The notes beneath the pieces were generated by a model, which made no database searches, was not told the DNA's origin, and saw nothing but the letters and a program-made list of their open reading frames with translations. Below, in pieces: positions 15,926-48,111 of a DNA stretch of 64,000 nucleotides; the first letter of the stretch is position 1; every line of letters starts with the position of its first letter. The stretch is from contig NC_081810.1 of assembly GCF_030704535.1 (NCBI RefSeq), positions 3,629,501 to 3,693,500 of the forward strand. Reading direction: 5' to 3'. The DNA comes from Vitis vinifera (Eukaryota > Streptophyta > Magnoliopsida > Vitales > Vitaceae). The position numbers and the translations under genes are program-made.

Positions 15926-18855
15926 CATTGATAATGTTGATGAACCTAATAATTATTTTAATAAAAATGTCATTATCTTGCATATTAAATAATTCGTGAT
16001 TTTTTATTTTTTAACTCAATTTATTTATTTGTGATCATCTCAAGCAATCTTCGTATTTCTTTTGTCTATTCTAGTGAGATTGAAGTAATCCTATATCAAA
16101 AGAAGATAAAAAAGAGAGTTTCCTTATCCTATAAAAGAAAGTCCATCTCCTATACCATTCATCCCCAGAAAGGCTTTTATTATTTTGTAAGTTTTTATAT
16201 TATTTTATCTTAATAGAGATAAAATGTTGTAATTTTATTTTCATATGGTGGATATTTTTCGCTTATTCCCCCTCCAACCTTATATTAATCAATAGTTGAG
16301 TAATAAATTTAAGTAGTAAATTTAATTTGAACATTCAATAATTGAGACAGCTAAAGTGTGAAATTTATTCATTTTATAAATTTAAATTAGCCTTATATTA
16401 ATCATATGACATTTTTTGAAAATTTAAGCATACACAATATCTCATGGAGATAAAAGTATATTGTTTATATAGAGAAGTTAAATTATCATTTAATAATACA
16501 ATTTCACGTGTTATAGTTTAAACTATAAAAAAAGTATTATCATAATTTCTTATATAAAAATGTATTGACTATTTTCCAATCATTATTTATCTCAAAAGTG
16601 GGTATAAATATTTAAAATTTTTCTCAACAATTACCTTCCAATAAATAAATAATTGATATCATATGCTATGATTCAGTAATTTGACTTAACTTCAAAATTT
16701 TAATTATAAAAATGAAATTAATTAAATAGGCTTTTTATTTAAAAAAAGTTCCATTTTAATTTAAAAAATGATTTGATATGCTTCTTTTAAATTTGCCATT
16801 TTTATTACTATGCTTTTTATCTTAATTACCATAATTTAATTAAACTAATAAATGATTTATAATTAAATATAATTTAACTATACATTAAAAATATCTCATA
16901 AATAGTTAATAATAATGAAAAACTAGTGACTTATTCAAGTTGATAACAACAATTTTTTTCTTTTATCGAAAATCATTTAATGTGTCTTAACCTTTATAAT
17001 ATTTAACATAACAAGTGAAGCACACTTACTTATTAATTACATTTATGAATTAAAAATTTGGGATATTTCGTTGAAATATTGAATGTAGGTGGTCGATACG
17101 AAATTGATCACCAAAGAAGTTTCGGCAAATGTGAGCTGCATGCGGGCCTTGCGCTAAGAAATCATCAATTTTTTTAAAATTGCCATTTTTTTTTAAATTC
17201 ATGTTTTTTTTTCTGATTTATCCTCTATTTTAAATTTATATCAACTTTTTATTCAATATTATCCTTTTTATTTATAATTATTTTTCATATTTATCATATT
17301 TAAAAAATTTACGACTACTTCACTTTTAATTTTTTTTTTATATTTATCCTTTTAATTTTATATAATTTTAAATGTTTTTATTTTAAAATATGAAAAATAC
17401 AAATTTATTAAAAAATTGTTACAATATTTAAAAAAATCACGAATTTCTAATATTTTATAAATTAAAATTAATTTAACAAGATAAATTATTAATATAATTT
17501 TTAATAATTTTAATTATTTAAATACATTAATGTTAATAGTAAAAAGTTTGTCACCATAGATTTGTAATAAAATTTTAGAAATTAAATCTTAAATAAAATA
17601 TTTTATATAAATTGATTTAATTTTTTTATTTAAAACATAATAAAGCATGTTTTAATAAAAATAGTTTAAAATTTTTAAAACAAATGAATATAAATATATT
17701 AAAATAATTTAAACTATTTTTTCTAAAATAAATTTGATGAATATTATCTTTCATCTTACTTATATTAATTATACTTACAAAATAACTTTAATTGATGTAT
17801 TATTGCTTATTTTATCATTATTTATTTTTTAAGTTTTTTTAAATATTTTTTTTGAATTTTAAATAATTTCTTTCATATCCATATTTTTATCAAAATATCC
17901 ATTGATATATTTGTAAAATCCAAATATGTTTATTAGTATTTTCATCATTGAGTATATTTAAAATTCGTGCAAATTGATACAAAAATTAACTTAAAATAAT
18001 GAGAATTATAAATGAAAGTGTTTTTAAGCATGAATTTTTTTTAATACTTGAATAATAAAATAATTTTTTAAAATATTAAAACGGTTAAAAATAACCGTGA
18101 CTCACAAAAATAGTTTGTTTGTTTTTTTTAACATTTAAATAATAAAATAAAATTTTCAAATATTAAAAATGTTAAAAATCATGGTGACTTTTCAAGGTGA
18201 TGGTATGTAAGTCTAGCAACTATTACACAAACAAACGATGTATTAAAGGCTCGTGATGAATCATAGGAATACTTTTTAAGAGTCAAAAGATTTACAAATT
18301 AAGTACAATAGCTTAAAGTAGTTGATCTTTATAGCAACTAACCATTGGAAACAATTTCTCATCCGTCAACTGTCATTTAATGAGAGTTGCAGATGACTGT
18401 TGATGCTAAGAGTATGACCGGTCGCCCAATAAGTAGATTGTGCTAAATAGCACAAATTTTGGGTTTAGGTGAGACCGGTTGGCAGCCCAAGTTCATGAGT
18501 TAGAAATTTATGCTCCAATGCTTTCTCCTTACTTGGTCTTTTTAAGGCTACGTTTGGATTTGCGAAAATTTGAGGGAAAGAAAATAGGGAGGAAGAGCGG
18601 AAGAAAGGAGAAAGCAAAGAAATATGTTGAACATTATAGACTGGTTAGAATGTGAGAATAATTAGTGAAATAGAAAAAAAGAAAAGGAAAATGAAGGGTG
18701 TTTTTCGATATGAACCTGTGGAGGGGATGCATGTCTGGAGGTGTAATGGCGGAGCGGAGGATGCATGTGAAGTCTACTGCAATTTTCCATCACCCGCTGT
18801 TCATTGACTTTGACACCCCATCTCATGTGACCATCGTTTCTTCCTGCGTCACTGC

Positions 18856-26232: not shown

Positions 26233-26653
26233 GCCCCCCGCCTCATTGGCTCATTGGCTCATTGCATTATTGTAATAATTCTTTTATTAAATTAATTGAT
26301 TGTAATTATTGAACATCACCTTAATCATAAGATAAATTTCTTAATCAGTAAATAAATCAAAAGAAACCTTCCTGGGAAGTGAAGTTGTATTTGGTTAAAG
26401 GGGTTGTATATTGTTACTATTGTATAGCTGTTATTCATCATTGAAAATAATGAGAAAAGGTTCAAAAAAAAAAAAAAAGGAAAGTGAATAGATTCATGTG
26501 AGGTCAGCGGCATGCACGGCACTGCGACAGCAGCGAGTGGACTTAGACCTAAAAAAACCAGATCTAGAAACGACGTCGTTTAAGTTCCTCTTCTCCTCCT
26601 CTAAAAGCCCTACTCATTCAGATCTCACTGGACTCAAACTTGTTGCCATCACA
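26233..26653 (+). promoter_or_regulatory. Intergenic spacer and promoter of the PDI gene
   Basis: The kinase and PDI genes are head-to-tail with 421 bp between stop and start codons. The spacer contains an A run at 26466-26478 and the palindrome at 26568-26581. An in-frame extension of the PDI frame to 26498 could start only at GTG and is read as leader. Confidence 0.5.
26568..26581. promoter_or_regulatory. Perfect 14-bp palindrome with ACGT core
   Basis: AAACGACGTCGTTT equals its own reverse complement and centres on an ACGT core, the kind bound by plant bZIP dimers. It lies 73 bp before the PDI ATG, in the promoter or leader. Binding is inferred, not shown. Confidence 0.55.
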
Positions 26654-29600
26654 ATGTCAGGTCGACTCGTTCTCCTCCTCTTCCTCTCCTCTCTCCTTCT
26701 CTTTTCTCAATTCTCTCCGTCCTTGTCAACCGACAAGAATGACGATGATCTCGACGAAGACCTTTCCTTCCTCGAACAAGACGACGTCGTCGAACCTCAC
26801 CATTCCAAGTCGGGTCACACTTCAGATCTGGACGAATTCGATGACGACGCCCTCGACGACGATTTCGACAACCACTCCGACTTCGATGAGCCCGACTCCG
26901 ATTACGGCAAGTATTCGCAGTCGGAGATCGACGAGAAGGACGTTGTCGTTTTGAAGGAGAAGAATTTCAGTGACGTTATTGAGAATAATCAGTATGTGAT
27001 GGTTGAGTTTTACGCGCCGTGGTGCGGCCACTGCCAGGCTCTGGCCCCGGAGTACGCGGCTGCAGCGACGGAGTTGAAGGGGGAGAAGGTGGTGCTGGCG
27101 AAGGTGGATGCAACGGAGGAGAGTGAGCTGGCTCACGAGTACGATATTCAGGGGTTTCCTACTGTGTACTTCTTCATTGATGGCGTTCACAAGCCGTATC
27201 CTGGCCAGAGGACTAAGTAAGAATTCTCTATCTTTCTCTTCTCAATTGATGGGATCAAATGGAATCAAGTCTGTTTGGTTTCTGAGAAAATGTGGTTAAA
27301 GACAAATGAATTAGACTTTTGAATCTCAGTTATTTCTCATTTGGACCTTAAAAGACTATGCTTTTGAGGAATTCGAGACTACCACAACTTTTGGTTAGTT
27401 AAGGTGATTTCTTCAAAATGAATGTATTGAACCGAATTGGATCAGTTTGATTGCTAAGAAAAGAAGACTGAAAAGAAATTGAGATTATTAATATTAGAAT
27501 TTTCATTAATTAGGAAATTCAAACTTTTTCACAATTGAGACTAATAGGACTATTTGGTTTGGTTTCGTTTTTTCCTTTTCTGGAATTGAATTCCCCCCGC
27601 CCAGTTCTCTGGGTTAATGCCTTCAATGATGGAAGAGTTTTCTCATCATTGAAATTGGACTACTGAACATGAAAATCGAGGAAGCTTATAAATCAAACCT
27701 ATTCCCTAAAAGATGGCATCCCAAGGGAAGCTATTTTCTGTCTTTTTGAATAAATGAAGTGGTGTAGTTAAACTACTGAGCTGCTAGATCAATAATAATT
27801 TGAGGTTTTTAAAATGTGGTTTCCAGTGTTTACTCTTTCCTAATATGGAATGGAAATTTAGTGACTCAACAGCTATGCTTATGACTCATTTTTTCCATTC
27901 ACTTCATTGGGTTAGTACAATCACTCAGGATAGTTTGGAATTTAATACATTTTTTTGGTTAATTTTATTAGCTTGTCGTTGGAGGATGTTAACAATCTTG
28001 AAGGACTCTAGAAAACCCTAAATCAAGTGTCAGACTTGGAATTTCTTCTTATCCATAATAACATTTTTGTTTGGGAAATATTTAGGGGAAATGATGAAGA
28101 ATGCTTTGATTTTTATAGACCTCTTTTTTGAAAAGATCATTCTAAAGATTTTCCTTGAACCCAAATAGCAAATCTCTAATCTCCCTCTTGTTTCAGTTTC
28201 TTTCTTTTGTTCCTTTCATTTTTTTTCTTTTGTTCACCTTTTTTTTTTGGCTCCTTTTTTAGTTGGAAGCTGACAAACAACTTATTTCTTGATTTATGAA
28301 TAGGAAGTACAATAAGGGTGAGTTACTAGAACAAAGCCAAACCCTCCATGCTCTCCCCTTTTCTACCTTTTTATTTCTCTTTCTTCAAGAGCTTCTTTTT
28401 TACCATTAAAAGTGAAACATATCCCAAAGAGTATGAAAAGGTACTTATTAGTTGGTCCATGGAATACATGTTAAGAAGGATTATTTAGTTCTTTGTTTAT
28501 TTTGAAGTTATACATATATGGAAGGCTAATAATTTCTCTGTTTCTTCTTTAGAGATGCCATAATAACTTGGATCAAGAAGAAGATAGGACCTGGTGTTTA
28601 CAACATAACCACAATTGAAGATGGCGAGCGCATATTGACTTCAGAAAATAAAGTTGTTTTGGGCTTTCTTGACTCTTTGGTGGTATTTTCTTACTCTCTT
28701 TATCTTTTGTTGATGAACAATTTTACTTTTATGAAAGCTAATAACTAAGAGAGTGTTTGGCAAATTCAATTTAATGGCTTAATAACTTAATTTAAGTCAT
28801 TAAGTAAATCAAACATATTTGGTAAAATAACTTAATATTACAACTTAAAAATTAATTCTAAATATTAAATCAAAATAATTAATTTATTCTTAATCTTAAA
28901 TTCTTTTTACCTCATTTGCCCATGAGAGTATATTATAGAATTATGATTCCACCATGTTTCAAAGTCATGGTATCGGTCTGAAGTTTGAAGGCATTACTTC
29001 GGTGAAAAATATACCCTACGAGGATGCAAAAACTTGGGTTTGAAGGATGAAAATGAAAATTGGCTTCGAAATTTCCTTATTTTTTTTCCCCACCGCTTTT
29101 GATTCGAGTATCGGTCTAGTACCGGCCATGGCTAAGGCGGATATGACTTGGCCGAGTCTGAGATTTTGAACCCTGGATTCCACAATCCATGACTCAATTT
29201 TTATAATAAATCTTTTTATGGTTATCTTATATATCTACGATACTTTAAATATGGATGTTTTATAAATAATTTTATTGCTTAAAATTAATGAAAATAAATA
29301 TAAGTTAAAATTAATGAGATAAATATTTGAGCCAAACATTGCTTAAGTGTATTTCTTACATTAATAGGTTCAAAATCCCCTTAGTCTCTCACTTCTTTCA
29401 ACAAGCGTTCATAATTTTTAGTTATAGTTTGTGATCTCAAGTTATTCATGGTATCTGCGACTCTTGACTTATTTCTTAAACATTCAAATTCATGATTTTG
29501 CTACTCAACTTGGCCTGCTCAATGATTACAGGGTCCTGAGAGTGAGGAGCTTTCTGCTGGTTCAAAACTTGAAGATGATGTCAACTTCTACCAAACTGTG

Positions 29601-36064: not shown

Positions 36065-36947
36065 AAAAAAAAAAGCTGTTAGTGGGTGTGGGTTTGGGTA
36101 TGATGCAACTTCAAATTTAGGTTGTGGTCCCGTTAGGGTTTATGTGGAAATAAAAGATGGTTGGTGAGTGGATGGATAAGAATTAAGCATGTGAAGATGA
36201 ATCCAGGCTATGCAGCAATACAATTCAGTGCCCATTCCACCAAGAATGTGGAAAAGGTTTCTACCTTGTAATACAAAGTGGAAATGTTTTCTTGAAAGCT
36301 CTAATGGAGTAAATGTTTTGATCCTCCTTAAAAAAAAAAAACAAAAAGTGGTATTTATTTATTAAATTAAAAAAAAAAATACATTTAAAGGTGAATCATG
36401 AATGTTCCAACTAGGCTAACTTGGGTGGGTTGGGTTTGCATCCAATATGCTAAATCCAACCCCCTATCCTTAATTTTTTGAAATTGGGTTAAGTTTGGAT
36501 TAAGTCAAATTGGGATTTAAGTGAGTGGAATCAACCTTTGATTACTTTTTAAATTTTAAATTTTGTTCATTTATATCAAAATTTAAATGGTAAATAACAT
36601 ACTATTTTAAAATTTTAAAAAATATTTATCTTTTTAAAAATAAAACAAACATAATAAATTAATATTGACATTTTTTTCTTTTAAAATAATTTGAAAGGAT
36701 AAGAATTGAGTTGGGTTGGGCTAAACCCGCTCAAATTACATCCCTAGTTGCACCTATCCAGGAGGGAGTCAACTGTTGGCCTCATTGAATGTCGATCTCC
36801 CACGTTGAATGCCACTCCATGGGTGGGTTGTGCCTCGTATTAGCACCAACATTTTGGTATCTCTAAATCATCTTGATCGATAAAATTACTTTGCAGCCAT
36901 TTGACTTGACTCTCCAACTTATATTTTAATTCTTCTTTTCGTCCTTC

Positions 36948-37371
36948 TGTAAGTACAAATTTTGTAAATTTTTGGTCCTGTAAAAATTAGCAAAACAAAA
37001 ATAGGAAAATAATGCGAACAAAATATTTATTAAAATTAAAATATATTATGGGTACAATCTAAAAAAAATAATATTCTTTCCAAAAGAATATTTTTCCTCT
37101 GATTTTTTTTGCCTTGATCACACTTTGTAAGACAATGATGACATTTTCTTGATTTTGAAGATCAATCGGAGGCCACAAATGTAGAGAAAATTTGAATTTC
37201 AAATTCCTGAATTTTTATTGCTTAATTCAATGGATTTAGTTCATTGATTTTAGCAAATTTTCTTCTCCGAGAAGCTTTACCAACAAGATAATAATAATAA
37301 CAATAATTTTCTTCTTTCTTATTATTATTATCCTTTTTATAGTTGGAGATTAGAGAAACTTATTCATAAGA

Positions 37372-37416
<45 letters not shown>

Positions 37417-37480
37417 ATATTTATTCATTTTGAAGACCAAATTAGTGGTAATTTAATCCACTAATTTTTTTATGTCTACA
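36948..37480 (-). repeat. 3' LTR (element orientation), 533 bp, internally deleted
   Basis: It begins TGTAAGTACAAAT and ends TATGTCTACA. It matches the right LTR except for roughly 170 bp missing after GGCCACAAATG near 37180. It includes a (TA)n tract at about 37374-37411. Confidence 0.85.
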
Positions 37481-37497
37481 AATGCCCCCACTTCAAG
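37481..37497 (-). other. Polypurine tract of the gypsy element
   Basis: On the minus strand this reads CTTGAAGTGGGGGCATT directly before the 3' LTR start TGTAGACATA. Purine-rich, G-run tracts at this position prime plus-strand DNA synthesis. Confidence 0.75.
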
Positions 37498-37729
37498 ACA
37501 CATCACGTACATGTGTCATATGGATGGGAAGAGTCTTCGTAATAATTTTTTTTTTCAAAGAAATATTTTAATAGGAAATTTCCTCTTTTTTTTTCAAATA
37601 AAAAATAAAAATTTCCCACTTTTATTCAAACTTTTTTTTGTTTTCCTACTTGCTTTACGCTTTGAATAATCTTTCAATTTGTTTTCCTTCTTGCTTTACA
37701 CTTTCAGTCCTCTCCCAATTTGTCCTCCC

Positions 37730-37760
37730 TATATATATATATATATATATATATAAAGGG
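37730..37760 (+). promoter_or_regulatory. TATA-like promoter candidate for the antisense PMD frame
   Basis: A (TA)n run ends in TATATAAAGGGG on the plus strand, inside the element and about 665 bp before the PMD ATG. The sequence that follows looks like a leader. This could allow expression independent of the LTR promoter. Confidence 0.35.
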
Positions 37761-38419
37761 GATAATAGTTGAAAAACTTGATTTGAACTTTTTCAGAGAG
37801 CTCTTTCGACCTTTAGGTGTAACCCAACTTGAATTCATCGTGAAAAATCTTCACTTCTTCAAACTTGTAAGTGTTTTTTTTTTCAAAGAAGAGAAAGACT
37901 TACTTTTTCGAACATGTGTCGGCCTTCATCATTTGCAGAGACGAATTTAATTTCAGGTAATTTAATTAAATAATTAATTTTTTAGTTACCTTAATATTTG
38001 AGGGGAATTTTTTTAAATAAAATTAAATATCCATAAAAAAATATGAATATTTAAAATTTGACCCTTGTGTAATCAAGTCGTAGCCCTAACGCGAAGCGGT
38101 GTCGTATTTTTGGCACTTAAGTGTTAAAAGTCTTCACTCATGCAAATTGACTTAACTTGAATGCATAGTGATATTTCAAGTTTTAACACTTAATTAAAAC
38201 TGGAATAATACTTGATATTTATGCAAACAAGTTATAGACATGATGCTACACGATGTTGTACTTTCAGCACTTAATACAACTTGAGTGCTAAGGTCTTCAT
38301 CCATGCGAATTGGCTTGACTTAAATGCATAGTGACATTTAAAAATTTAGACCCATATTTTATTCATTTCTTTTTCTACCTTTTTTATTATTTATTATTTA
38401 TTTATTTTTTATTTATAGG

Positions 38420-41400
38420 ATGATGTTCTTCAAATGTTTCAAGGAAAAGACCATAACCATTCTTCAGGATGATAGTGAAGATTTTGAGGAAGGGAGTACC
38501 TTGTTAGTGCATAAGTCACTTATTGACCTTTAATTTTTGTCAGTGTCAATGACAAATGACCCATTACACATTTCTTCCTGGTCCCGAGTTGCATCTTGCA
38601 AGTTTACAAATATCAACAATTCAAAACTTAATAAGGTGAAACCTATTTCTAAGCTCTGCTGTTGAATTCCTCTCACCCAACTACTATTAAGGTTCATGAT
38701 GAATTTGGATTGTTGGGTTCTTGTGTTCGTGACGGAGAAGCCAAATGAGGAAGCTCATTCAAAGTACTTAGGGGAATTTTTCTTTACCGAATGATATTGG
38801 GAATGGGTTGAGAAGGTATTAGGTCGACATGGACCATTCCTTAAAATGATGTAAGCTTTATGAAGCTATCTTTGCATCCTTATTTAGCTATGATCGTCAT
38901 GCCTTTATGATTAGGGCCTTTTGCGAACGTTGGTGTCCTACCACTAACACCTTGCATACTTCCATTTGAGAGGTTTCCATCTCCCTTTGGGACTTATATT
39001 GTATTGCTGGATTACCCATCATTGGATATTTTTATGATGAGATGGTACCGAGCGTGGAAGAGTTATCTAATGATGCAACAAAGTCCTTACTCCCACCAAG
39101 TTGTTGAAATTTATTCCCTTTATATCATCGAATTTGCTATGAGATGAAAGGGAAGTCTTTAGTCAAGTTAGCCTCTTGGGTGTCATTTTGGTACAAAGGC
39201 TCCATGAAGTATGCAAAACCTCCAAAGAAAAGTACAAGGAATAAGGCGCAAAGGCCTAAGGAGACTTATAACCCCTCCGAGGAAATTGATCATGTTAAAT
39301 CTTGTACTCAGTCAGAGATGGAAATTTTTGACAACCTTGGCATAGTCGAGACAGATGTTAAAGAGACTTACTTGACCACTTTCTTGGCATGTTGGTTATG
39401 CAAGTTCGTTCTTCCTTGGGGAGGTGTCAACTTGATTCGTTTAGGAGTCTTCAAGATAGCTAGTAGAATGACTCAATGTGAGACATTTAGTCTTGTTGTT
39501 TCGGTGTTAGCAAACATTTACAACGGCTTAAATGAAATCGCTTGTTCTTTGAAGCCTGAGACTAATGCATCTATTTTCCCTATTCATTATTTATACGGAT
39601 GGTTAGGTGAATATTTTGATACCCATTTTATTTCTCCTTCTTGGAACCATCCCCCACAGATGACTTATTACACCGACGAGTTTTCTGCTAAGTGTTTTGA
39701 TGATTTGCAAGCTTAGACTTTGATAATGTCTTGCAAAGGCATAAAGTTGGACCACTTGGCATTGCGCCACAAGGAGCGTGTGCATTGGGCTGATAATGAA
39801 TCTATTAGTGTTACCAAAGATTATTACCTCATAAGTCTTCGCTCTAGCTATTTATCTTTGCGACAAGGTAACCATTGGGTGATCCAACCATATTATCCTC
39901 ATCAGTTTTCTAGGCAATTTGGGTATCCTCAAGACCTTTTGGGAGGTTTGCTAAAGATTTTTCGCACTAGAACTTTAGAGACGGTGTATCAACATTGGGA
40001 GTCATGCATTAGGCTTGGTACTTACTCCAAAGTTACTATACCATATTATCATAGTCTTAAAGAGTTTTCAGTCACCAAGGCTTATGCGGATTGGTGGATC
40101 AAAGTGCATAATCCTGATAAGGAAATTCTTATTGCTGCTTGCATGGAGCCCCCTTCTGACTCTTCTCGGCAAATACTCTCAAAATCTTTAGAGAGTAGAA
40201 TGCGCAATGATGACTCAAGTGTTTCTACTAAGGAGAATATTAAAGACAATGTTGAGAATGATTTTGATGATTTACCTGATGATTCAAGAGCTTCTTCTAA
40301 GCGCTCAATGGGTGGACATAAAAATAATACCTCTACACACTTAGAGCATGAGGAAACTATTTTCAATGGTGGTAATACTCACTATCACAAGACTTTGAAG
40401 CAAAATAACAATGCACATGGTCTTTGTGAATTAGATGATGATTTTGAAAATACAAATGAATGTCACTTCAAACGTCGAAAGATTAGACCCAACCCTATGT
40501 ACTATGATGAGACTAACTCTCATCCTCTTGATGTAGATGTCTTCTTTGCTGACGTCCCAATTTCTACTCAACCGATGGAACTTGATGGTGAAAAGGTAAT
40601 TTTTTTTTTTTTTTGCATTGATACTAACAAAAATAAATATTTGTCTTAGGTGGCGGGTGACAACCAATTTGTCGATGAAGGGAATGAGTCATCTCCTAAG
40701 GATCAGTTCAAAAATGTTGTTGCTGCTAGGGAGTCAACGCCCTTTACCTCGACTATGCAATGAGATAATTACTCTATCATCCCATTACATTTGTCTCATT
40801 CTTGTTTGGATGATGAAGGTATTACTAACATCTTAAGTGATGTTTTGATTGAATCTCAAGGTTAAAAGACCACAATTGGAGATATAACATATGATGAATT
40901 GACACTTTTATCAGTTGCATGTTTAATTGTTGAACAATAATCTCTATGCCCTACTGTGGTTGCTCATTCTACTTCCACTCACACATTCAACGTCGAACAA
41001 ATCATCCTTAATGCCCAATGCCAAGCAGCGCTTATGATAGGAGAAGACATTAATGAGATGATTATCAAAACTTTCAATGAGTGTCTCCCATTATTGAGAG
41101 GAAAACTTGATGAGCTTTTCAATGCTATCATGAAGATTGGAGTGGACCCTTCACCATTGAAGTCTCAAATTGAGAAGTACATGGAAAGTGTAGATCACCC
41201 CGATGCAGTGCAACACACCCATTCTATGAAGATATCTCTGGAAGTACAAAACGAACGTTTAACTATTGTTGCATCTCAGATTGTGGATGCTCTAAACTCT
41301 GAGGGTGTACAGACAAACCGTCATCAATCATTAAAGGTTGACTTAACTACTCTCGATGTTAAACATGAAGCACTTAAGAAGGAATTGGAGCAACTAAGTA

Positions 41401-41606
41401 TACAAAAGAAGCGCCTTCATAACTCAATCTTAGAGATCGATGAAATTATGACCAAGAAATAGAATGATGTTTCTTGTTTGAGGAAAGAACATGTCATTAT
41501 CGCCCAAACCCCCGTGCTTACTGATGTCGATGTCAAGACTTTAGAGACACTTCAAGAATCCTTAAGGACTCAACGTGACGAGCTTGCATGCTTGGTGTGG
41601 ATGTGA
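38420..41606 (+). pseudogene. Plant mobile domain (PMD)-like gene inside the retrotransposon, antisense to gag
   Basis: One frame runs from ATG 38420 to a +1 shift near 38852, then to 40595, and after a putative 54-base intron (40596-40649, GT-AG) to TGA 41604. That is about 1040 codons with stops at 38531, 38663, 38792, 38852, 38967, 39105, 39714, 40761, 40863, 40938 and 41460. PMD hallmarks are the early RAFCERWCPTTNTLHTS and ISLWDLYCIAGLPIIG phrases (about 38895-39025), a Trp-rich middle (LACWLCKFVLPW), the PIHYLYGWLGEYF block (39580-39620) and HWESCIRLGTYSKV (39990-40040). An acidic, low-complexity part follows, then a coiled-coil-like tail (about 41000-41460). PMD proteins of the MAIN/MAIL group are nuclear; transposon-borne relatives are known. 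Decayed here. Confidence 0.8.
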
Positions 41607-42009
41607 TCATTGTACCTTCTTACTTAGTTTCAACTCTCATTCTTTTCTTTCATTCATTATTTTATTTTTATTAAGATGTAATAAAGTCTAGTATTTGTTA
41701 TCCAGATTTATTTATTAATAAAAATAAGACTTTTTTTTTTTTTTTTGGTAGTGACTGAACTCAAGTGGTTTCCCTGAGTTGCCTACATACCTTTTAAAGA
41801 GAAGGGATCAAGTCAAATGTAGTTCCATTTTTTTTTTAAGCTCTAATATTTGCCAAGACTAAAAGAAAGATTTAATCTTGTGAACATATGTCCTAACTTT
41901 TACCTAAGTCGCATTTTCAGGTTTTCAACTTAGTAGACTTTTTTTTTTTTTTTTGTGTATCGTACGCAGTTTATGCTCACGCGGGCTAGGAACATCACTT
42001 GTCTTGAAG

Positions 42010-42470
42010 GATGATAAATTCATGTTCTTGGAACAAAGTTTAATTGAGGGTCAAATATGACTTATTCTCAACCAAACTTGTGAAAATCTTTCTTAAGCAT
42101 TTTGGAGAACAAAATAAGTCCTTTAAATTCGTCTTAAATTTCTTCAACCTTAAAAGTGGATGAATGACACTTTTGTATTGTGTTGGATATTCTTCCACGA
42201 CCATGTTGAAGAATGTGTCAAGCTTGGACTTGATTTTAATCCAAGGGTGGTAAACACATGTTCTTGGAGCAAAATTTAATTGAGGGTCAATGATGACTTG
42301 ATCTCAAGTAAACTTATCAAAAATTCTCTTAAGTGTTTTGAAAAATCTAACCTTGTTTTCTTTAGCTTTAAAGGTGGATGAATGTCACTTTTGTTTGTGT
42401 TTGATATTCTTCCACGAGCTTGTTGAAGAATGTTTGGAGTTTGATTTTGACTTTTGAAGCTTCATTTTTT
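42010..42470. repeat. Two-copy tandem repeat of about 236 bp inside the gypsy element
   Basis: CATGTTCTTGGA occurs at 42021 and 42257, and each copy continues with TTTAATTGAGGGTCAA and TTCTTCCACGA. It lies between the PMD frame and the nested insertion. No coding content is seen. Confidence 0.8.
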
Positions 42471-42979
42471 TATTTAGCTTCTGGGTTGCATCGCCCTTTT
42501 GAGAACGCATCATGCTGAAAGAAAAGAACATTTGTATGTAGAGAAGTTGGAGATTTTAGTTTGAAATCTCCGAATTTAACTTCTTTAATATAAAGAGTTT
42601 GTTCCTCGGTTTAAGAAGTTTGCCAATAATGATTTTTTATTTTTTATTTTTACTGTAGTTTAAGCTTTTGTAGGATGAAAGCAATATGCAGTCTAGGCTC
42701 ATGCTTTAAGGAGCATCATTGGAATGCCGAGGTTTGAAAACAATTGTGGTAAAATTTGATGTCATGCTCTCTTCATCATCACCAGTGAAAGTGATGGTTG
42801 CACAACATGCTGCACAACTATGACATTTGTTTTCAAATTGTTTTGCCCCCTTTATTTTTGTAGCATAGATTGATGGATTCCTATGTATATGGATCAATGC
42901 AATTCGTGTTTCCTCAAGAAGTTGTAACATTTCATGGATATTGAAGAGCAAGGGTAAGTGATTTCTCGGATTTTGTCTT

Positions 42980-44515
42980 TTGTTGGATCAAAACAAAATT
43001 TATAACCCAATTCACTATTCTATAGTAATTTGTACCCGATCAAAAAGTGGTTTTAGTACAAACTACTGTAGTATAGTGGTTGTTAGGTATCGTCCACAAG
43101 GATGGATTATTCTTGGTAATTAAGGCTTGAATGAGATGATAAGAAATGATTGTGATAAAATGAAATTGATTTGAAAATGTATGATAAAATTTCATAATAA
43201 CAATGATTTCAAATTGAGAGGAAAATGAAGTGTAAAAGAGAAGAAAATTAATAAGATGTGAGATTCTCGGAGTTAGGATTTTCTAGAAAGCAATTTCCAT
43301 GGTGAATAGATGTTGAGATCTAACTGTCATCAAATTAGATTGAAAACCTAAATTTTCATCTAAACCGATTTTTGATTTAGTTTTAGGTCTAGATCTAATT
43401 TCTCTTCAAATTAGGTAATCTAATCCAAGAGGTCAATTCAAATCATATATTCAATTCATCTTAAATTATCTTCCGATGATTCACACAATGCAACTATTCA
43501 ATCTCATCAAATCTAGCATTAAGAATTTGATGAATCTACTTAGCTTGCATTGTAGTAATCATCCAAGACAATTTGAAGAGAAAATTCCCCAAATTTCAAT
43601 TAATCAATCAATTGGATCAAATTACCTTTATAATTCAAGCTCAATTATCTAATTCACCATAGATATTGCTTCTAGATCTCCCCTTCTCCGAGAAAAACGA
43701 GATTTAGCCACTCATGCTTGGAGATTTGATCTCACAAGACATGTTTGGCTATCAAGAAAATAAGAGAAAATGAAGGAAAGTAGAGAATTATATAGAGAAA
43801 AGAAATCTGAAAAGTTCTACAATTAGAAAATGTATCAAAAGTCTTTAAATGAGTCAATCACGTTTCTATTTATAGGTCAAGGTCAAGTGGACACTTGGCA
43901 CCATCTAAGAGGTCTTCCGGAGGCTTCTTCATCAAAGAATCTGGAAAAAATACATTTTGGCATGAGCCCCTAGCAATTTCGCATGATGATGCGAAGTGGA
44001 AAATCCATCAGCTGCATTTTCGTCTTGCTGGAGCGTTTCGCATGACTGTGCGAAAATTTCGCATGGTCATGCGAAACCACTTTTCACATTTCCCTTATTT
44101 GCTGCAGCCAAGCCTATTCTGTTTCATTTCGCATGACTATGCGAAAATTTCGCATGGTCATGCGAAATTGAAAAACATGCTTTTTTCGACTCCTCTTTGC
44201 AATTTCTCTCATTTCTTTCTCTTGATTCCACTTCAATTACCTCCAAATCTCGATCCAAACCGATTGCATTGCTTCTTTCATTATGCATTTGGATCATCAT
44301 CAACTTTATTTGTTTTCTTCAATTTGATTCATCTCTTTTGTCACCAATTTATCAAAATCATACCTTGAAATGACTCCAAAACTTCATAAAACTTGCTAGT
44401 AACTCTTGCAAGGGCAAAAACATATTAATTGAGTGTTTTAGGCATAATTACTACTTAAAAGATGTGAAACTCATGAGAATTATTATCTAAAATATGCTCT
44501 TTTTGAGTAGTAATT
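42980..44515. mobile_element. Nested non-coding insertion, probable LTR-type fragment
   Basis: The gag-derived minus-strand frame breaks off near 44515 into sequence with no link to gag. The insert begins about 42983 (TGTTGGATCAAAACAAAATT), contains the phrase TTAGGTATCGTCCACAAGG often seen just inside plant LTR elements, and carries the hairpin-rich block at 43977-44167. Its exact ends and target duplication could not be fixed. Confidence 0.45.
43977..44167. repeat. Near-palindromic TTTCGCATG...CATGCGAAA repeats
   Basis: Two 41-bp units (44036-44076 and 44127-44167) differ at one base and start 91 bp apart. Each consists of two hairpins of the form TTTCGCATGgtCATGCGAAA and is itself nearly self-complementary. 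A shorter relative is at 43977-43995. Confidence 0.9.
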
Positions 44516-44529
44516 AGTAAGCATTGTAG

Positions 44530-46841
44530 GTTTGTTACTACCTCATCATCTTCCTTAGTTTTGCTTGACTCTGCACCAAAAGCATTTTCTTCATCCTTAT
44601 CTGGCTCATCTTCTTCCAAAATCTCATGACAAGAGACCATATGAGTTGATGTCACCATCCCTTTATTGAAGAACTCCGGAGGGAAGTATTCTCCTAAGGT
44701 GATAGGAATGATAAACTTTTGTACCAATAAGTTATCAACTTGTACAATCGCTTGTTTTCTTTTAGGTTTCTTTTCTTCTTTTTTCTTCGCATGTTGATGA
44801 ATATTTTGCTTACATTGTTATTTCCTAGGAAGATTTGGATATGGATGAGATTTTTGTTTCTTACAAGGTCTTCTTCGTGTCACTAATGTCCAGCCTCCTT
44901 CGTTATACGACATTGATTCATTATCAAAATAGAAGTGAAGAAGGGTGTCTTGACATGACACTTGTGTTTGCTTTGGTTTTGGTGACTTGCATTGGATAGT
45001 ACCGATGCATGCCCCTAGTGTCTTAGGTGGAACATGTAACGAAACAGGATCGATGGATCCAAATGTGACTGTAGCATGATTTGACTCTACTACTTCATCT
45101 AGATCCAAATGGATTCTTCCTTGTTTTGCAAGTTTCATTATGAGATCTTTTAAGATGAAACATTTCTCCACCGGGTGACTGGTGATTCGATGGTAATGAC
45201 AATAGTTCGGATCATTAATATGACCCATTTTTTTTTACGCTTGCACTCAAGTAGTCAATAACTTTTTTCTGGAGCAGGTCTTCCAACATGCTAGGCACAT
45301 CAAAATCAGGAAAATGATACTTCTTCTCCTCTAATTCCTTCAAGGTGAACCGACGCCTCTCATTTTCCTGGGTTGGTCTAGCCTCTTTTACTTTCTTCTT
45401 TTTATCTCGCACTGAGATTTTGATTGGAGTCGCATTTTTCATCATTGACTCCTAGATGGGTTTTATTGAATTCTTATCACTTGTTTTCCCATTGTGTCTT
45501 TCTCTTTGTTGGCCAATGATAAGGTCCTTTTTAGCACCATGGTTGGCTATGCTGAGCTCCATGTCACGTGTTCGAGTAGCTAATTCTTCAAAGGTATGGG
45601 GTCGTATCCCTTGGAGGATGTATAGGAGACTCCAATGCATTCCTTGTAAGCACATCTCCACGGCTGATACCTCAGATAATCTATCTTTGCAATCAAGGCT
45701 TAAAGAACGCCAACGGTTGATATAGTCTACAATCGACTCGTCTTTCCATTGCTTACCGTTAGTAAGCTCCATCATGCTTACAGTTCGTCGGGTGCTATAG
45801 AAACGGTTAAGGAATTCACGTTCCATTTGGTTCCAACTATCGATACACTCAGGTGCAAAGTCTATGCACCAATCGAAAGCATTCCCTCGGAGTGAATGGA
45901 CAAATTGTTTAACTAATAAGTCACCATCTGTACCTGCATTGTTACAAGTTTCAACGAAATGGGCAACATGTTGTTTTGGATTTCCCTTCCCGTCAAATGA
46001 TTGAAATTTTGGAGGTTGATAACCCACAAGCATATGTAGCTTATCAATCCTCTTAGTGTAAGGATTAGAGTACATGAGCGTACTCTGTGAGGGTCCACCG
46101 TACTGCACTTTAATGGTGTTAGTTATCATGTCCTGAAGTTGTTGAACAGATAATGATGTCAGTGAGGCAGATTCCGTCGTTTGTCTCTCAACTTGCATTG
46201 TCCTATACGTATGTGGTGCATCATCGAGAGGAGATGCAACATTCGAAAGGTGGTTGAGTCCTTGACTTGAATCACCCGTATTTTGTACTTGTGCCTCAAC
46301 TTTGTTTATGAGAGAGGATATCTGCATATCCTTTTCCTCAACCGTCTTGGTGAGTTTGGTGATGACGCGAGCCATCTCTGTTAATTGTTCCTCTAAGGAT
46401 GTAGTGTCGATTGCCATTACTGACATAGTCATCGAGAAAGAAGAATTAAAAGAGTCGGAATGATTGGAGTAGTTTTCCTCATTTGACATTCCAATTGGCG
46501 ATCCAGAGTGTGAGTTGGTGCTAGAGTTGGCATTGGTAACAGAGCAAAGAAATTTATCCCCAAAGTCCTGTAGTGTTGAAGGGATTTTTCCTTTTCTATG
46601 AGGACTATGGCTCTTTGCCCCCAGAGAGACCAAGGTGATGAGTGGTTGGTGCTCATCATGTGTTCTTACTTGTTTTAGCAAACAAGCAGACTCACTTGTT
46701 TGTTTTGTTGAGAGTGAAAATATTGATTTTGCTTTGCTACGAGTCATGGGGCCTGTAGCGGTGTCATGTGTCAATTGTGCAATGATAATCTTGTCATTGC
46801 CTTTGTTGACATGCACAACTTGAGTTCTTTTAGGTGTCATC
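44530..46841 (-). pseudogene. Retrotransposon gag of the gypsy element
   Basis: The frame probably starts at ATG 46841, because the open frame upstream of it runs back into the LTR and primer site. It begins MTPKRTQVVHV. A Ser/Thr-rich N-terminal part leads to a coiled-coil-like stretch (about 46420-46310). The gag core lies at about 46060-45540 (YQPPKFQSFDGKGNPKQHV, then FLNRFYSTRRTVSMMELTN). A stop at about 45450, a frameshift in an A run near 45225 and a stop at 44818 break it. Beyond the shift a Cys/His cluster (NYCHYHRITSHPVEKC, about 45200-45150) stands where the zinc knuckle would be. It packages element RNA in particles in the family; here it is inactive. Confidence 0.85.
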
Positions 46842-46889
46842 GACGTACTAGAGATCAATCTTCTAACAAGAAAGATGAGAGGCAGGGAT

Positions 46890-46907
46890 GTCCCATCGGG
46901 CGTGCCA
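46890..46907 (-). other. Primer-binding site of the gypsy element
   Basis: On the minus strand TGGCACGCCCGATGGGAC begins six bases after the 5' LTR end (CATACA). A TGG start and this position are typical of a tRNA primer site. I cannot name the tRNA with confidence. Confidence 0.55.
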
Positions 46908-46913
46908 GAAATT

Positions 46914-47523
46914 TGTATGCACAAATTTCGTAAATTTTTGTCCTGCAAAAATTAGCAAAACAAAAATAGGAAAATAATGTGAACAAAATATTTATTGAAA
47001 TTAAAATATATTGTGGGTACAATCTCAAAAAAAAAAAAAATTTCAAAAGAATATTTTCCCTCTGGTTCTTTTGTCTTGATCACACTTTGGAAGACGACGA
47101 TGACGTTTTCTTGATTTCAAATATCAATCAAGGGGCCACAAGTGGCTTATTCCCGAATGACCTTGTTGAATGGTGAAAAACACATGTAGCAGTTCTTTTG
47201 CTGCTTACCGATTTGCTCCATACGAAGTTACCTTTGGATTTTCTCCTTAGGATTTTCCTTTCTGGATTTTTTTTTTTTTTTTTTTTCTGAATTTCCTTCC
47301 CTGCTTGATGAAAAACAACTCAATTTATAGGCAAAGATAGGGAATTTGAATTTCAAATTCCCGAATTTTAGTTGCTTAATTCAAAGGATTTAGTTCCTTG
47401 ATTTTAGCAAATTTTCTTCTTCGAAAAGTTTTACCAACAAGATAATAATAATAAAAATAATTTTCTTATTATTATTATTATCCTTTTTATAGTTGGATAT
47501 TAGAGAAACTTATCTATAAGAGG

Positions 47524-47554
<31 letters not shown>

Positions 47555-47619
47555 AAATTTATTCATTTTGAAGACTAAATTAGTGGTAATTTAATCCACT
47601 AATTTTTTTTATGTCTACT
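46914..47619 (-). repeat. 5' LTR (element orientation), 706 bp
   Basis: It begins TGTATGCACAAAT and ends near TATGTCTACT, where the last base differs from the expected A. It contains a (TA)n tract at 47525-47551 and a T run at 47270-47286. It is the longer, less deleted of the two LTRs. Confidence 0.85.
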
Positions 47620-48111
47620 ACTTCCTTATCATTTCCCTCACGACGGAGTATTATTTTTAATTTGCAAAAGTTGAGATTTAACAGTGTCCAGTAGAACCCA
47701 CACAGCAAACCCAGCATGAGCTTCTCTTTTTCTGTGACCATTAGTTAGAATTGCAGGGAATATGCCGCCCAAGACAAGTTGCCTTGAACAATAACTCAGA
47801 ATGGAGGAAGGGATTCCTTACTAAAAACATTGAAGCGAGAGTATTTCTTCCAAATGTATGCATTCTGGTAGATAGAATTTTTGTAGCCTCATCTGGATGC
47901 CATATATGTACATATGAAATTTTGCCATTTGTTTTGTCATTGAGAACACTGATTGAAGAACATAATTTACTCTGATGGAAGATTTTTTCATATTTGTCCG
48001 GGCATTTACTACATTGATTTCAGCCTTGAGAACCCGATATACCACAAGGAGACTCAAGGATTTCTCTTTAGCTGACTCTTTATTCCATCAACCAACTAAA
48101 TCTGCCAAGGT
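47620..48111 (-). other. 3' flank of the HDS gene
   Basis: The region between the retrotransposon and the HDS stop codon probably contains the HDS 3' UTR. A minus-strand AATAAA lies at 48079-48084, close after the stop. Frames here have no family features. The retrotransposon therefore sits about 0.5 kb beyond the HDS coding end. Confidence 0.5.

Follow-up and report, generated by a model that had tools for sequence, protein, structure and literature searches.

A window of 64,000 nucleotides of Vitis vinifera DNA (the whole stretch that was analysed) contains, at positions 36948-47619, an LTR element of ~10.7 kb bounded by two direct repeats. We interpret this element, with a probability of about 0.8, as an old, decayed LTR retrotransposon of the Ty3/gypsy superfamily that belongs most probably to the Tat group, on its Ogre side, and that carried an antisense plant mobile domain (PMD) gene as an extra ORF, once a convergent unit of its own. 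The PMD extra ORF sits in the 3' half of the element, reversed, between gag and the 3' LTR; both coding regions, gag and PMD, are broken. The features of the element are listed below, the candidate signals among them having been read directly from the letters.

36948..37480, minus strand: 3' LTR (relative to gag), ~533 bp, with TG...CA ends, from alignment with the 5' LTR
37481..37500, minus strand: candidate polypurine tract, adjoining the 3' LTR
37730..38419, plus strand: candidate promoter and 5' leader of the PMD unit
38420..38850, plus strand: stretch possibly encoding the N-terminus of the PMD protein, read in another frame and assigned by position only
38850..40100, plus strand: plant mobile domain (PF10536), degenerate, from a profile match with stops as X
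40596..40649, plus strand: candidate 54-nt intron, GT...CTAAC...TAG, containing the stop at 40647; its removal preserves the frame; uncertain
40650..41606, plus strand: C-terminal region of the PMD gene, broken, with a possible coiled-coil tail, from frame reading and stop counts
41680..41722, plus strand: two AATAAA (sites 41680 and 41717), candidate polyadenylation signals 3' of the PMD frame
42007..42454, no strand: imperfect tandem duplication lying between the PMD unit and that of gag, 75% identical at a spacing of ~236 bp
44455..45234, minus strand: likely gag-side coding continuation, frame shifted from gag, with an internal stop
45452..46951, minus strand: gag-holding open stretch (PF03732), closing with a stop
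46890..46907, minus strand: candidate primer binding site, starting TGG, 6 nt inside of the 5' LTR
46914..47619, minus strand: 5' LTR (relative to gag), ~706 bp, from alignment with the 3' LTR

The two LTRs that the initial annotation had placed around this region are direct copies of each other. The alignment of 36949-37481 with 46914-47620 revealed 91.4% identity over 513 ungapped columns, with 44 differences (27 transitions and 17 transversions) and a K2P distance of 0.092, which, at commonly used plant substitution rates, we take to correspond to an insertion several million years old. A block of ~200 bp in the right LTR, at ~47145-47342, is absent from the left one. Paired direct LTRs with TG/CA ends identify the element as an LTR retrotransposon, the final base of the right copy being T instead of A. 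The flanks CCTTC (36943-36947) and ACTTC (47620-47624) have 4 of 5 positions in common and represent a weak candidate for a target site duplication. The rest of the window yielded neither a further LTR (E up to 1e-5) nor another copy of PMD or gag (E up to 1e-3), so the LTRs, gag and PMD most simply belong together.

Two other regions of the window were noted apart from the element. The block 16001-18000 is very AT-rich, with 17.8% GC against 23-40% in the window's other 2-kb blocks, and an open frame at 26492-27220, with a CGHC motif, resembles by eye the beginning of a gene of the protein disulfide isomerase-like type.

The Pfam scan of the open pieces of the minus strand gave a PF03732 gag match of 54.8 bits (E 1.1e-14, residues 350-439), while Ty3_capsid reached 23.4 bits on gag, under its cut-off of 29.1. 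A retrotransposon-type gag is present, which supports Ty3/gypsy without defining it, the superfamily being defined by the order of pol and by phylogeny. The likely gag-side continuation corresponds to the open pieces 44818-45234 and 44455-44817 (138 and 120 codons, respectively); the former had no Pfam match and the latter had one sub-threshold match. No Pfam match to reverse transcriptase, RNase H, integrase or protease was obtained at E up to 0.01 in the three minus frames of 37480-44460 and the three plus frames of 41600-44460, nor were pol domains matched in ten open pieces scanned separately; of the plus strand of 37480-41600 the coverage was of the PMD frame alone, and of 44460-46950 it was of the gag-side open pieces alone. 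Three copies of a 41-nt unit occur at 43956-44167 (68% and 98% identical to the reference copy), built of short near-perfect palindromes, and the sequence around them, at ~43.0-44.4 kb, looks by eye as if it did not belong to the element and may be a nested insertion.

The PMD gene is located opposite gag and between the LTRs, as had been described from the initial reading. PF10536 was matched on the plus strand and the PF03732 gag on the minus strand. When stops were read as X, the frame 38850-40595 matched PF10536 at 91.2 bits, against a cut-off of 34.9, and the alignment covered profile positions 2-346 of 347 and protein residues 3-416, which is nearly full length. A profile search for this domain had been set beforehand as a check, with the lack of a match to count against the proposal, and the domain was recovered. 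Taken singly, three open pieces of the plus strand matched PF10536 at 19.5, 33.1 and 23.1 bits, all under the 34.9-bit cut-off; this separate scan comprised seven plus-strand pieces, with 38531-38864 and 40650-40940 outside it.

The initial annotation also proposed a frame of about 1040 codons; as an open frame, this is rejected from the stop positions and the likely frame change. Reading from the ATG at 38420, three in-frame stops are encountered before ~38.8 kb, the PMD is encoded in a frame other than this one, itself interrupted by 8 stops, and the longest open piece has 310 codons; the gene length of ~1040 codons is the extent of a degenerate gene and not of an open frame. The proposal of a PMD gene carried antisense in a gypsy element thus holds for the LTRs, for the strand opposite gag and for the PMD match, and is corrected as to the frame, which is not open.

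The PMD frame contains 9 stops over 38851-41610 (8 ahead of one at 41604, with that at 40647 possibly belonging to a short intron), against 52 and 109 in the other plus frames and 51, 52 and 80 in the minus frames. A set of 1000 mononucleotide shuffles, each read in 3 frames, gave 60.5 +/- 7.3 stops per frame, with a minimum of 29. Since 9 stops are found where shuffles give 60.5, the frame has both a clear protein-coding history and a clear loss, and the PMD gene has become a pseudogene, interrupted by several stops in frame and probably by a change of frame. Around the domain, the region 38420..38850 had no Pfam match, and the tail had only sub-threshold matches, the lowest E-value being that of MAD (15.8 bits, cut-off 30). 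The 202-aa open PMD piece found no match among solved structures at E up to 1; in viral contigs, this piece and gag gave 16 and 4 pattern matches, respectively, none of which was confirmed by tblastn, and tblastn against plasmid records found no match.

Several candidate signals accompany the antisense unit, namely promoter, introns and AATAAA sites, all read from AT-rich sequence without a chance control, where such hexamers are common. A TA-rich tract at 37730-37758, on the same strand as the PMD, closes in TATAAAG, and a GT...AG pair delimits a possible leader intron of the PMD unit at 37957-38418. A 59-nt imperfect duplication (81%) was observed inside this candidate intron, at 38127-38348. 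Typical plant introns are longer than 54 nt, and for this reason the second intron candidate, at 40596-40649, is uncertain.

An early report of extra ORFs of such a kind is said to be that of Steinbauerova et al. in 2011. PMD cargo in gypsy elements is already known, and this locus is one more decayed example. PMD is described as the most frequent atypical domain in a set of plant LTR consensus sequences, occurring in ten species after filtering (PMC9289625), the clades PMD-A1/A2 as exclusively Gypsy-encoded (PMC5418596), and the domain itself as confined to angiosperms (PMC8616336). In Ogre elements, PMD is reported among the extra ORFs in 57%, and extra ORFs are classed there according to where they lie and whether they run forward or in reverse (PMC6317226). 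The element shares with Ogre (Tat lineage) the gypsy-type LTR structure, the gag and the PF10536 extra coding region between the LTRs, a likeness taken here irrespective of orientation; the PMD-bearing extra ORF, frequent but not defining in Ogre, is present here as a broken frame. On the other hand, no pol was matched in the scanned stretches of this copy; it is by RT-RH-INT phylogeny and an extra aRH domain that the Tat/Ogre lineage is defined. The LTRs are of 0.5-0.7 kb, while non-chromovirus LTRs are reported to reach ~5 kb (PMC6317226).

Of the recently active Retand elements, also of the Tat lineage, every one studied is described as coding in antisense between pol and its 3' LTR, mostly for Transposase_28 and not for PMD (PMC11963269). 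As in Retand, the extra ORF adjoins the 3' LTR, is antisense to gag and has duplicated sequence close by; however, Transposase_28 (PF04195), typical there, was not matched in the PMD-side and gag-side frames scanned. The anatomy of the initial reading stands, with a PMD antisense to gag and between the LTRs in the manner of Tat/Ogre elements. Since no reverse transcriptase, RNase H or integrase was matched in the stretches scanned, the Tat/Ogre placement follows from layout and cargo rather than from a phylogeny of pol, by which the lineage is defined.

TR-GAG elements are an existing class of non-autonomous LTR elements, in which a whole family lacks pol yet is mobile. It is possible, rather than probable, that the locus is likewise a copy of a pol-less family with gag and an antisense PMD, spread by the enzymes of a relative, given that both LTRs and gag are present and that no Pfam pol domain was detected at E up to 0.01 in the six frames of 41600-44460 and the three minus frames of 37480-44460. 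Nevertheless, the locus differs from TR-GAG by its antisense PMD gene, and the lack of pol is seen in one copy only, a decayed one that cannot separate a family trait from the loss of pol in that copy; the duplicated sequence and perhaps nested insertion at 41.6-44.4 kb hint at rearrangement. A fuller version, which seems quite unlikely to us, is that such a family kept gag together with an antisense, independently promoted and intron-bearing PMD, borrowing its enzymes from others and supplying its own silencing modifier in trans.

The origin and the mode of action of the antisense unit may also be read differently. MULE transposons and host genes are reported to carry PMD as well (PMC5418596), so that the domain could be a later nested insertion, either a copy of a host PMD gene or a PMD-bearing MULE, and not the element's own. 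We consider this very unlikely, as no transposase was matched in the frames scanned, the layout is like that of known Gypsy cargo, and, among the 25 longest of 41 inverted-repeat pairs, none of at least 24 nt brackets the PMD besides AT-rich LTR-to-LTR pairs, a minimum at which short or weak terminal repeats would escape. A nested MULE was accordingly rejected as the most likely source of the PMD on the transposase and inverted-repeat results. The convergence of the gag and PMD units would also fit an antisense unit that acts as RNA, its double-stranded and small RNA products silencing the element or tuning it. This is unlikely in view of the clear coding history of the PMD frame, whose 9 stops, against 60.5 expected, indicate that a PMD protein was once kept.

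We therefore retain the reading of a decayed Ty3/gypsy retrotransposon whose antisense PMD gene was its own cargo. In such an element, the intact PMD gene would have been its own transcription unit, starting just inside the 3' LTR and running towards gag, and its transcription would have been convergent with the genomic RNA. Any introns of the antisense gene would not have been removed from the genomic RNA, where they would lie in the wrong orientation, and so would have been kept through retrotransposition. By analogy with the host proteins MAIN and MAIL1, the PMD protein would probably have been nuclear, acting on chromatin or transcription. The complex of MAIN, MAIL1 and PP7L is reported to be needed for the silencing of some transposons and for MORC1 expression (PMC9899485, PMC8616336). 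The likeness to MAIN/MAIL1 (clade PMD-C) lies in the plant mobile domain, but those are host genes with a silencing role. The protein may either have tuned the element's own expression or have interfered with host PMD-dependent silencing. This role, as counter-silencer or expression tuner, is a hypothesis already in print for transposon-encoded PMDs, an opposition to silencing having been suggested for PMDs captured by DNA transposons (PMC5418596) and for transposon PMDs generally (PMC8616336).

The published 'DOWN' motif, found in genes down-regulated in host pmd mutants, was searched with one mismatch and occurred 6 times in the window, against a chance mean of 6.6, with none of the 6 matches inside the element; a connection of the element to this motif was rejected on these counts. 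Because the PMD frame is broken, the present copy is unlikely to fill the proposed role as a protein. As a pseudogene, the copy could today yield antisense or small RNA at the most.

The reverse-oriented, convergent layout of gag and PMD is clearly visible here, in one decayed copy, and the locus adds an example to the question of why relatives of host silencing factors are so common a cargo of plant gypsy elements.
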